Both the position numbers and the translations under genes were made by a program. The notes under the pieces were generated by a model. It saw only the letters and a program-made list of their open reading frames with translations. It made no database searches and had not been told where the DNA came from. From positions 1-53,906 of the forward strand of contig JABDKX010000108.1 in assembly GCA_013001975.1 (NCBI GenBank): 53,906 nt of DNA, in the 5' to 3' direction. Shown here piece after piece: positions 2,592 through 6,790 of the stretch (positions are counted from its first letter, which is position 1; each line of letters begins with the position of its first letter). The DNA is from Saprospiraceae bacterium (GTDB taxonomy: Bacteria; Bacteroidota; Bacteroidia; Chitinophagales; Saprospiraceae).

Positions 2592-2663
2592 GGCCCGTTC
2601 GTCTAGGGGTTAGGACGCCAGGTTTTCATCCTGGTAGCAGGGGTTCGAATCCCCTACGGGCTA
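2592..2663 (+). tRNA. tRNA-Glu (anticodon UUC)
   Basis: Full cloverleaf of 72 nt. Acceptor arms GGCCCGT and ACGGGCT pair (G1-U72 wobble), with discriminator A at 2663. The anticodon stem CCAGG/CCTGG encloses the loop TTTTCAT, giving anticodon TTC for GAA/GAG codons. The T arm is AGGGG/CCCCT with a TTCGAAT loop. The 3' CCA is not encoded and must be added. A hairpin terminator follows at once. The last 11 nt of the gene plus downstream sequence are duplicated from 3013. Confidence 0.97.
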
Positions 2664-2665
2664 CA

Positions 2666-2700
2666 ACAAGACCTTCTTGCAATTTGCAAGAGGGTCTTTT
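2666..2700 (+). terminator. Intrinsic terminator of tRNA-Glu
   Basis: AAGACC and CTTGCAA pair with TTGCAAG and GGTCTT around a short A/T loop, and the 3' arm runs into TTTT. It starts five nucleotides after the tRNA end. A close copy at 3026-3060 lacks a clean T tract. Confidence 0.7.
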
Positions 2701-2840
2701 CATTTATAAGACTGTTGAGCTTGCTCATAAAGGCTTGGAAATGAAAAGACCTAAGATTTACGAAGTAAATAAAGGTCTTGTTGTACTATATAAAAACGAT
2801 GTTGGGATCATCGAAGATAATCCCCGCTACAAATGAACTT

Positions 2841-3000
2841 AAGGAATGAATTAATATTCGCTCCTTTTTTTATGCTCTACAGTGAAATGATTTAATGGAC
2901 GCCCTTCGGGGATTCTTGCTGCCCGCCCGAAACCAAGTTTCGGTGCCCTCTCTTTAAGGTGATTGCTATCACCTTAATTATTATTTCTATGAAATAATAA
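2841..3000. other. Structured repeat element, copy 1 (five consecutive hairpins)
   Basis: Five inverted repeats in a row: P1 TTCGCTC (2857-2863) with CAGTGAA (2880-2886); P2 CCC-TTC-GGG (2902-2910); P3 CCGAAAC/GTTTCGG around CAA (2927-2943); P4 AAGGTGAT/ATCACCTT around TGCT (2956-2975); P5 TTATTATTTC/GAAATAATAA around TAT (2978-3000). The P2-P3 part is clearly more GC-rich than its surroundings. I do not recognise it as a known RNA family. A structured RNA, a REP-like palindromic element, or a remnant of a mobile-element end are all possible. Confidence 0.6.
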
Positions 3001-3012
3001 CCGTTCGGTTAT

Positions 3013-3285
3013 CCTACGGGCTACAACAAGACCTTATTGCAATTTTGCAAGAGGGTCTTGTTGTATTATATAAAAACGATTTTGGGATCATCGAAGATAA
3101 TCCCCGCTACAAATGAACTTAAGGAATGAATTAATATTCGCTCCTTTTTTTATGCTCTACAGTGAAATGATTTAATGGACGCCCTTCGGGGATTTTTGCT
3201 GCCCGCCCGAAACCAAGTTTCGGTGCCCTCTCTTTAAGGTGATTGCTATCACCTTAATTATTATTTCTATGAAATAATAACCGTT
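3013..3285. repeat. Duplicated segment, copy 2 (with tRNA-Glu 3' fragment)
   Basis: Second copy of the segment. It opens with the last 11 nt of tRNA-Glu and the terminator-like hairpin, then joins directly to the hairpin block because the 73-bp spacer of copy 1 is absent. The tRNA fragment cannot fold into a tRNA. The arrangement looks like a tandem duplication, or like the duplicated tRNA 3' ends left by an integrase; no integrase gene lies in the window. Confidence 0.8.
3121..3280. other. Structured repeat element, copy 2
   Basis: Copy of the element at 2841-3000, shifted by 280 bp, with all five hairpins intact: P1 3137-3143/3160-3166, P2 3182-3190, P3 3207-3223, P4 3236-3255, P5 3258-3280. 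The single difference I see within this stretch (C versus T at 2915/3195) lies between P2 and P3 and breaks no stem. Confidence 0.6.
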
Positions 3286-3369
3286 TGCATTTGTCTCTCT
3301 TTTATTTGATACTATGATAATGATTAAAAAATAGACAGGTGACTTTTATTATTCAACTTATACATACTA

Positions 3370-3477
3370 ATTAAGTGAATATTTATTCACTCCTTTTTTT
3401 ATGTCTAAGAGTGAAATGAATTATTTGACGCACGTAGTGGATTCTTTCTGCCACTCCGAAACAGAGTATCAGTATCA
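3370..3477. other. Structured repeat element, copy 3 (diverged; P1-P3 only)
   Basis: A clearly related but diverged copy. P1 is TTCACTC (3386-3392) with GAGTGAA (3409-3415), perfectly paired where the other copies have a G-U and a mismatch. P2 is CAC-GTA-GTG (3431-3439), replacing CCC-TTC-GGG with paired changes. P3 (CCGAAAC 3456-3462, GTATCAG 3466-3472) is partly degenerate, and P4-P5 are not recognisable. The T-run after P1's first arm and the 'gaaatga' after its second arm are also retained. Confidence 0.5.
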
Positions 3478-3559
3478 AAAAACTTAAAAAATATTCTTAA
3501 AACTCTGAACGATAACTACAATCCTAACGTTGTTTTTAATATAATTGCCTATTATATCA

Positions 3560-5080: not shown

Positions 5081-6565
5081 ATGCTGACCAAATTTATCGT
5101 CTTAGGAATCTACGTTGCCATATTATTCTTGATAGGCATATTCGCTTCTAGGAGAATCAAAGGCATGAGCGACTTTTATGTCGGTGGCAAGAACATGGGC
5201 TTTTGGGCAGTCGCATTCTCTGCTAGAGCAACGGGAGAATCTGGTTGGCTATTAATAGGATTAACAGGAATGGGTGCTCTCGCTGGTTATTCTGGTTACT
5301 GGGTTGTACTTGGTGAATGTTTAGGCGTTTTCATTTCATGGTTCTTTATGGCGAAGATATTTAAAAGAAAATCTGATGCTTACAAATCCATAACAATCCC
5401 AGATTATCTAGAGAGCCATTTCAAATCATCCACACATACGTTAAGAATACTTGCAGCTTCTGTTCTATCAATATTCGTTGTCATCTATGTGAGTTCTCAA
5501 ATCGATGCAACTGGCATTGCCTTCGAGTCTATGTTAGATGTTAACTATTTTACTGGTGCCCTTATCGGATTTTTCATAGTACTTATTTATATATTTTTTG
5601 GTGGGTTTGTAGCTGCTGTTTGGTCTGATTTATTTCAAGGCTTATTAATGTTTTTTGGGCTAGTATTACTTCCGATCGTTGTTTGGTTTTCAATCGATCA
5701 TGGACAATCAATAACTGAAGGCCTAAATGCCATAGATCCTGCTCTAACTGATATATGGGGCGGCAATGAAGATGGTTTAATGAATCTGTTTACAATTTTA
5801 GGATTCTCCATGATAGGCTTAGGATTTCTTGGATCTCCTCAAGTATACGTAAGGTTTATGTCTATCAAAAACGAGGCTGAAATAGACAAAGGAAGGTGGG
5901 TCGCGATCATTTTTACATTACTAACGGATGCTGCAGCTGTTACCATTGGAATTTTAGCTAGGGTACTCTTTACCGAAAATGGTCAAGACCCAGAAGCTGT
6001 TTTTGGCGTCGGTGCAACTGATGTACTCAGTATGATGACTGAAAATTTCCTTCCTTTCATTTTAGTGGCCATTTACATTGCAATTGTTTTATCTGCCATC
6101 ATGTCAACTATCGATTCATTATTAATCATTGCATCAAGTGCGATTACAAGAGACTTTTATCAGAAAATATTCCATCCTGAAATCAAAGATGATGAATTGA
6201 CAAAACTATCAAGAATAGTAACAGTCATTATGGCTATTGTTGCTCTTGGAATTGCGATGACCATTGCCTTGGTTTCTCCTGAAAGGCAAGTATTTTGGGT
6301 CATCATTTTTGGATGGTCAGGTATTGCTGCTACATTCTGCCCTGTTATTATTCTTAGTTTATTCTGGGACGGCTTTACAGAAAAAGGAGCCATTGCTTCC
6401 ATGATTTCTGGATTTATAAGTGTCATTGTTATTAAATTTGTTTTACAAAACATAGAAGGTATAGGTGAGTATTTTGTAGCACTAGATGTTTTAGGCCCTT
6501 CTTTTGTTGTGGCTATGTTGTTTGGATGGGGAGTTAGTAAATTTGAAACAATGCGAACAATGTGA
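5081..6565 (+). CDS. Sodium:solute symporter (SSS family, PutP-like)
   Basis: Integral membrane transporter of 494 residues with about 13 hydrophobic segments. The family signature is clear: FASRRIKGMSDFYVGGKNMG near the N-terminus, FSARATGESGWLLIG, and LSAIMSTIDSLLIIASSAITRDFY around residue 340, which holds the conserved Ser/Thr sodium-site residues. PutP-like proline/sodium symport is the closest guess; substrate cannot be assigned from sequence. The gene ends in TGA at 6563-6565 and a 9-bp satellite begins within its last codons or directly after, so the C-terminus (ETMRTM) may have been reshaped by the repeat. Confidence 0.85.
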   Translation: MLTKFIVLGIYVAILFLIGIFASRRIKGMSDFYVGGKNMGFWAVAFSARATGESGWLLIGLTGMGALAGYSGYWVVLGECLGVFISWFFMAKIFKRKSDAYKSITIPDYLESHFKSSTHTLRILAASVLSIFVVIYVSSQIDATGIAFESMLDVNYFTGALIGFFIVLIYIFFGGFVAAVWSDLFQGLLMFFGLVLLPIVVWFSIDHGQSITEGLNAIDPALTDIWGGNEDGLMNLFTILGFSMIGLGFLGSPQVYVRFMSIKNEAEIDKGRWVAIIFTLLTDAAAVTIGILARVLFTENGQDPEAVFGVGATDVLSMMTENFLPFILVAIYIAIVLSAIMSTIDSLLIIASSAITRDFYQKIFHPEIKDDELTKLSRIVTVIMAIVALGIAMTIALVSPERQVFWVIIFGWSGIAATFCPVIILSLFWDGFTEKGAIASMISGFISVIVIKFVLQNIEGIGEYFVALDVLGPSFVVAMLFGWGVSKFETMRTM

Positions 6566-6566
6566 C

Positions 6567-6690
6567 AATGAATGCAATGTGACAATGAATACAATGAATG
6601 CAATGAATACAATGAATACAATGAATGCAATGAATACAATGAATGCAATGAATGCAATGAATGCAATGAATATAATGAATATAATGATTC
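6567..6690. repeat. 9-bp tandem satellite (AATGAATRC)n
   Basis: Eleven uninterrupted 9-bp units of AATGAATGC, AATGAATAC or AATGAATAT run from 6584 to 6682. One unit at 6567-6575 lies before an irregular AATGTGAC, and a degraded unit follows. Because 9 is a multiple of 3, all frames stay open and give artificial Met-Asn-Thr or Tyr-Ser-Leu-His repeats; none looks like a gene. The array starts one base after the symporter stop codon. Confidence 0.9.
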
Positions 6691-6790
6691 AATATAACGA
6701 GTAAATAAGCAAAAGGTGTCCTCGCCTCTTTGCGAATTAAACAATAAAGTCAATGTAAATAAATAGTCAATATCAAATCCAATTAGTCAA

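Follow-up and report, generated by a model that had tools for sequence, protein, structure and literature searches.

The question raised by this locus is what kind of element lies downstream of a tRNA-Glu gene in the window, by which we mean the whole stretch of 53,906 nucleotides that was analysed, where a hairpin-rich repeat in three copies carries base changes on both sides of its stems. The sequence-only reading had taken such changes as a sign of a structured RNA or a palindrome under selection, and named a REP-like element or the end of a mobile element as alternatives. The features of the repeat locus, which adjoins the tRNA gene, are listed below; E1 and E2 denote two elements described further on.

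2592..2664, + strand: tRNA-Glu (anticodon TTC), called by ARAGORN and by Rfam (tRNA, 62.8 bits)
2666..2698, + strand: terminator-like hairpin 3' of tRNA-Glu, duplicated together with the tRNA 3' end (inverted and direct repeats)
2774..3005, + strand: repeat copy 1, of the 280-bp unit shared with copy 2 (232 nt, 99% identical, spacing 280)
2901..2915, - strand: antisense fragment of tRNA-Glu bordering E1 on the left (13/15 bases; local inverted match, p 0.007)
3013..3059, + strand: second copy of the tRNA-Glu 3' end and terminator, immediately 3' of E1 (96% versus 2653-2698)
3054..3285, + strand: repeat copy 2, 99% identical to copy 1
3181..3195, - strand: antisense fragment of tRNA-Glu bordering E2 on the left (12/14 bases)
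3376..3473, + strand: diverged copy 3, with the flank retained, an antisense tRNA-like stretch at 3425-3444, hairpin 1 decayed and hairpin 2 not found

As assembled, copies 1 and 2 are tandem repeats of a 280-bp unit located 3' of tRNA-Glu(TTC). A second tRNA 3' end with terminator lies between them (2653-2698 versus 3013-3059), and antisense tRNA-Glu matches lie at the left edges of all three copies. The hairpin-rich nature of the repeat and its paired changes were confirmed, as was the near identity of copies 1 and 2. The third copy was recovered as a relative with 76% identity over 98 nt, but was not confirmed as a folded one: with filters off, it scored 3.2 bits against the full-length element model (3456-3476) and 7 bits against a partial one (3374-3391), compared with 64.7 bits for copies 1 and 2, and the fold of the region 3360-3480 was no better than those of shuffled sequences (z -0.42, 61 of 200 as good). 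The region 2820-3012 in copy 1 folded beyond its shuffles, with a z of -3.73 and 0 of 200 as good. The two stems that had been singled out for their paired changes, P1 and P2, belong to the flank and not to the element conserved by the wider family. The change in P2 from CCC/GGG to CAC/GTG is a real paired change, but it is a single event in a 4-bp stem, and P2 lies within the antisense tRNA fragment (16/20 bases in copy 3). P1 has a competitor in a shorter local hairpin preceding a T-run, which is part of the minimum-energy fold in copy 1 and reads AGTGAAT/ATTCACT in copy 3. The statement that no known RNA family looks like this repeat agrees with our Rfam search, in which the tRNA was the only match in the window at the gathering score; the best other match around the repeat, Clostridiales-1, reached 28.8 bits against a cut-off of 48, and was rejected together with GibS and other weak matches, all of them far under their cut-offs. 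A 31-codon open frame (2741-2836, ATG at 2741) crosses the flank of copy 1, and its last part recurs in copy 2 with two changes, one silent and one replacing. At 6504-6753 in the window, there are also short tandem repeats that are open on both strands, MN-rich one way and HSLYSL-rich the other way.

Copies 1 and 2 each hold one non-coding element of about 97 bp, which we call E and which consists of three hairpins and a tail. Its two instances in the window are as follows.

2916..3012, + strand: element E1 (model R1, 64.7 bits at 2927-2979; outer edges read from comparison), with head 2916-2926, hairpin 1 2927-2943, spacer 2944-2953, hairpin 2 2954-2977, hairpin 3 2978-3000 and tail 3001-3012
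3196..3292, + strand: element E2 (model R1, 64.7 bits at 3207-3259; coordinates are those of E1 plus 280), with hairpin 1 3207-3223, hairpin 2 3234-3257, hairpin 3 3258-3280 and a degenerate tail

The 5' part of the consensus of E reads CCCAC, followed by hairpin 1 (7 bp, loop usually TGAT) and then by TTCCTTCNCT, and its 3' part comprises hairpin 2 (10 bp, loop usually ATTTA or GTTTA), a variable hairpin 3 and a tail resembling CCGTTCAGTCAT. Across the copies, the stems are variable and the loops and spacers are constant.

Searched at the DNA level, the window's own genome gave strong matches at the window locus only, the rest being of 22-32 nt with E-values of 0.02 or worse, and a search of 198 relatives with a 193-nt query gave mostly weak, short matches. 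At one locus in genome G022 (L019), tRNA-Leu and its terminator are followed by an E hairpin and then by a copy of the tRNA-Leu 3' end. The pattern of hairpin 1, spacer and the start of hairpin 2 was found at ten places in 7 of the 198 genomes, all seven from Saprospiraceae, with no place for the reversed control and none in the 78 genomes of other families in the order. The seed alignment A6 (five sequences, 56 columns), in which all 17 pairs hold in 5/5 sequences, with six changed on both sides and none on one side, gave covariance model R1, which matched in 48 of 248 Saprospiraceae genomes sampled; model R2, built from 110 matches, did so in 71 of the 248. The covariance-model search for more copies and covariation that had been proposed for this repeat thus yielded both, the covariation being strong. 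At least 23 R2 matches were found in each of G005, G026, G062 and G098, these copy numbers being lower bounds since 23 candidates were scored per genome. In an order-wide sample of 248 genomes, for which the share from other families was not shown, 9 matched R1 at an E-value of 0.001 or less, all of them Saprospiraceae. The window's own genome has E at six places, namely, two in the window, two on contig C74 beside tRNA-Val and one each on C256 and C257. The genomes searched were largely drafts of many contigs, some of which end at E.

The sequence CTGCCCGCCCGAAAC, with one mismatch allowed, was present in 50 of the 198 genomes, and among the loci examined it continued into the hairpin only at the window, L019 and L053. 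In the genome collection, a pattern from the flank common to all three copies gave no match, and a hairpin-1 pattern matched two contigs, that of G022 and one from Bacillota (L074), the latter having no R2 match within 8 kb. Two exact patterns gave no match in IMG/VR, and the phage and plasmid collections gave short scattered matches in 5 and 3 records, respectively. No description of the E repeat was found among the titles and abstract openings retrieved from the open-licence literature. The copy-flank sequence GGATCATCGAAGATAATCC recurs near a contig end beside other hairpins (L006; G000:C161:26389-26410), and TTTTTTTATGCT, whole or minus its last bases, occurs in several genera (G107, G190, G136 and G013; L010, L012, L016 and L022); in L010 and L012, it stands directly behind a terminator-like hairpin, which could reflect a shared tail or coincidence. 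G098 (L077) contains a long series of dissimilar hairpins, several of which precede a TTCACTC- or CCTTC-like spacer; they may belong to a broader class of hairpin arrays.

E is mostly intergenic, with 6 of the 110 copies within open frames of at least 100 codons, compared with 66% of random places in the same loci. It is also enriched at tRNA genes. Among 61 loci searched with R1, which were hand-picked from the ranked places listed and from earlier matches rather than drawn at random, a tRNA gene was present within 500 bp in 17 (tRNA-Val in ten of them) and absent in 44, whereas 0.85% of random places in 49 control loci were within 500 bp of a tRNA; this control is rough, because the control loci were pattern-chosen and held one tRNA among them, and the 61 E loci are not fully independent. 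In the 37 of the 61 loci with a gene called on both sides (24 at edges were left out), the tail side faced a gene 3' end in 28 (one-sided p 0.0013), within 40 bp in 8, and the head side did so in 20, within 40 bp in 1.

Stem covariation is widely regarded as the strongest evidence that an RNA is functional, and it is very strong in E. Alignment A7, which represents 98 distinct copies of the 110 and was fitted to the model structure and therefore leans towards pairing, was 97.0% paired over 1627 cells; 492 cells had changed on both sides, compared with a shuffle mean of 144.5, and 14 on one side. Hairpin 1 was represented by 35 distinct arms and hairpin 2 by 64. RNA stems would favour G-U over A-C pairs. 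In A7, 1559 cells were Watson-Crick, 20 were G-T and 17 were A-C, and in A8 (27 distinct copies, 429 cells), the numbers were 418, 5 and 3, respectively. A control set of 71 tRNA acceptor stems, taken from the fetched loci, had 11 G-T and 1 A-C; the contrast with E is modest (Fisher p 0.036), with the tRNA register chosen in favour of Watson-Crick pairs. Furthermore, copies with mismatched stems recur: a T-T mismatch in hairpin 1 is common to 5 of 8 dispersed copies of one unit in G313, with A-C in a sixth, and in G089, an A-C mismatch is common to 4 of 6 copies of one unit and two copies of another unit share a G-T. Because G-T and A-C are equally rare and copies with mismatched stems recur, RNA-level selection is not supported, and the earlier interpretation of the paired changes as a sign of structured RNA is not sustained. 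The mismatch spectrum and the recurring mismatched copies lead us to read the stems as DNA palindromes with arms that are rewritten together.

Within one genus, E can be present in one species and absent in another. In G005, the leuC-leuA spacer contains three E copies in 118-bp units, and it is short and free of E in G000, G001, G003 and G011; neither R1 nor R2 matched at the leuC-leuA loci L161-L164 and L166. Similarly, E was found in 1 of 30 tRNA-Val loci sampled (21 from Saprospiraceae and 9 from other families of the order) and in none of nine further ones (five from the window's genus, one a repeat of an earlier locus), and G000 and G008, from the same tRNA-Val list and outside the 30 sampled, have E beside tRNA-Val. 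Where E accompanies tRNA-Val, its left edge often holds a fragment of that genome's own tRNA-Val variant (GAGCATTAC in L107, L111 and L132; GAGCGCTGC-like in L113, L131 and L147), and its right edge continues as TCTAAACC of antisense tRNA-Val in L098, L107, L111, L113, L125, L131 and L132. Neither the left-edge fragment nor the right-edge joint was seen at the E-free tRNA-Val loci compared by eye.

At some of the E loci, direct repeats or an inverted copy of nearby sequence border the element. The left edge was compared with upstream sequence for 49 distinct copies, each the first in its cluster with no opposite copy nearby and enough flank; at p<=0.01, 6/49 matched in inverted and 6/49 in direct orientation, compared with 1/49 for the inverted control, and at p<=0.05, the numbers were 9/49, 9/49 and 5/49, respectively, a small excess. 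Direct flanking repeats at a shuffle p<=0.01 were found for 50 of 99 copies (11 of the 110 were omitted for too little flank), many of which are not independent insertions because tandem neighbours are included; the cleanest, in L113, extends over 79 bp without a difference. At the window locus, no orthologous empty site could be aligned, because the neighbouring cysteine-dioxygenase-like gene is just 33-41% identical within the genus.

From these comparisons, the window repeat is best read as a dispersed non-coding DNA repeat of Saprospiraceae, represented by two copies and a decayed remnant. We give an even chance to the account in which this hairpin repeat has been spread and rewritten largely by template switching during replication. 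Copies of E would arise and multiply largely via replication-linked template switching at hairpins, in which the nascent strand would fold back onto local sequence, often a tRNA, and the element and its neighbourhood would be recopied; tandem units would then expand by recombination between direct repeats. In the window, E belongs to a 280-bp unit that was duplicated in tandem along with part of tRNA-Glu. Template switching would also copy one stem arm onto the other, so that the stems would change as palindromes with the loops and spacers left in place. Template switching in replication is reported to create and mend hairpins (PMC8794818). Several findings count against template switching: the left-edge inverted fragment was found in a minority of loci only, with a small excess at p<=0.05, and a purely mutational account would predict less constancy in the loops and spacers than is seen. 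The dependence among the direct flanking repeats, the modest tRNA contrast and the unit ends in G313 described below, which look like ordinary transposition, also weigh against it. The genus comparisons were also too distant for base-by-base alignment of junctions, and no event was caught between two strains. The constancy of the loops and spacers suggests that something still recognises them, such as a protein that binds single-stranded DNA or hairpins. No single mover accounts for all contexts of E, and we favour template switching as the source of E and of its local multiplication, E being carried by other elements where possible, a combined reading that we regard as about as likely to be right as wrong.

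In G313, E lies inside a dispersed non-coding unit of about 375 bp with inverted ends of about 20 bp (AGGTGYATTTCATTTTTTCGC), resembling a miniature inverted-repeat transposable element (MITE), in L242, L243, L244 and L246. At the unit ends, 5-bp direct repeats, as in ordinary transposition, were seen by eye in 2 of 5 copies inspected, and the inner part of the unit is shared by L237 and L238 of G089, a genome of the same genus. Since E lies inside the inverted-end unit there, it may simply ride along in G313. As a general account, E would be a passenger or internal part of non-autonomous transposons moved by a DDE transposase; however, no inverted ends were seen by eye at the window, tRNA and leuC-leuA copies inspected, and the other unit of G089 and the G026 copies have different surroundings, so that we consider this account conceivable but unlikely.

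A further possibility follows from the parts of E that stay constant. E could be a new kind of mobile site, read at its loops and spacers by a putative Saprospiraceae recombinase or nuclease specific for single strands, which would insert it at fold-backs of tRNAs and 3' ends and leave local inverted and direct copies. Such a putative loop-reading enzyme would be indifferent to the stem sequence, and the stems would therefore be free for arm-by-arm rewriting. We regard this as a speculative idea with a rather low probability.

The same constant loops and spacers, together with the covariation in A7, the fold of the E1 region (z -3.73) and the orientation of the tail side towards a gene 3' end (28 of 37 loci, 8 of them within 40 bp), would suit a structured non-coding RNA or 3'-UTR element with stems kept by selection for RNA pairing. 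This account appears improbable, because G-T (20) is no commoner than A-C (17) among the 1627 cells and mismatched copies recur, as described above, and because the copies are scattered and polymorphic and lie in both orientations relative to neighbouring tRNAs.

The tRNA loci also bring to mind a miniature integrative element that would enter tRNA genes by site-specific (tyrosine) recombination and restore the gene, with the tRNA fragment as the attachment core. An intact tRNA with a partial direct tRNA copy behind E at several loci and the identical tRNA-Val joint TCTAAACC in seven loci are consistent with this, but 44 of the 61 loci lack a tRNA gene within 500 bp, and the duplicated tRNA part varies, being the 3' end in tRNA-Glu and tRNA-Leu loci and the 5' half in tRNA-Asp and most tRNA-Val loci; there is little likelihood that E is such an element.

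The earlier reading was right to name a REP-like or other mobile element as an alternative, but its transposase version, in which E would be moved by a Y1 (RAYT or IS200-type) transposase recognising single-stranded DNA hairpins, gained no support from gene presence, and we hold it to be very doubtful. In its favour, E is a short extragenic palindrome in several copies with constant-loop hairpins, and Y1_Tnp is common in Saprospiraceae (187 of 248 genomes). Tested as gene presence per genome, however, and with phylogeny uncorrected, Y1_Tnp was found in 35 of 48 genomes with E versus 152 of 200 without in the R1 list, and in 51 of 71 versus 136 of 177 in the R2 list; G026, G062 and G239, which have at least 23, at least 23 and at least 20 copies, had no Y1_Tnp match. 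GTAG and CGTC tags beside the hairpin are described for REP elements (PMC3733652), whereas the profile of the hairpin 1 flank had neither tag and reads CCCAC on the left. A reverse transcriptase as the mover was rejected, as RVT_1 was present in 22 of 48 genomes with E versus 108 of 200 without (R1 list) and in 33 of 71 versus 97 of 177 (R2 list), with phylogeny uncorrected in both, and had no match in G000, G005 and G098. Many near-identical reverse-transcriptase genes were observed in one genome (G215:C1), resembling a multiplied group II intron.

E is an apparently undescribed repeat of a large environmental family, which reshapes the surroundings of tRNA genes. With very strong covariation in the stems and no sign of RNA-level selection in their mismatches, it serves as a caution for RNA discovery, and the family could be a natural test bed for the evolution of hairpins by template switching. 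E may also break assemblies, as two contigs of the window's own genome (C256 and C257) end within 20 bases behind its modelled core.

Several known systems resemble E in part. The rtT RNA repeats (RF00391) behind E. coli tyrT form tandem units that each repeat the tRNA 3' end. By description, they share with the window the tandem units downstream of a tRNA that carry its 3' end, an arrangement that was also present at L116; unlike rtT, E has no Rfam match at the gathering score in the window, and it is scattered beyond one tRNA locus in both orientations. Integron attC sites are single-stranded DNA hairpins in which the stem sequence varies and the recognition parts are fixed, and E is like them, by description only, in its variable stems and fixed parts; unlike them, E came to notice with neither cassette genes nor an integrase. 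MITEs are non-coding and dispersed as E is, and in one genus E lies inside an inverted-end unit; unlike MITEs, E in the window has no inverted ends seen around it. REP/BIME sequences with RAYT (PMC3733652) are, like E, short extragenic palindromic repeats, several to many in number and sometimes arranged in arrays. Unlike them, E has three successive hairpins, constant loops and spacers with variable stems, and no tag beside hairpin 1, and it showed no link to the presence of Y1_Tnp across 248 genomes. The quasipalindromes attributed to template switching (PMC8794818) are like E in their perfect stems, double changes and inverted local copies; the hairpins described there are mutation events in existing genes, whereas E is a conserved and multiplied repeat family.
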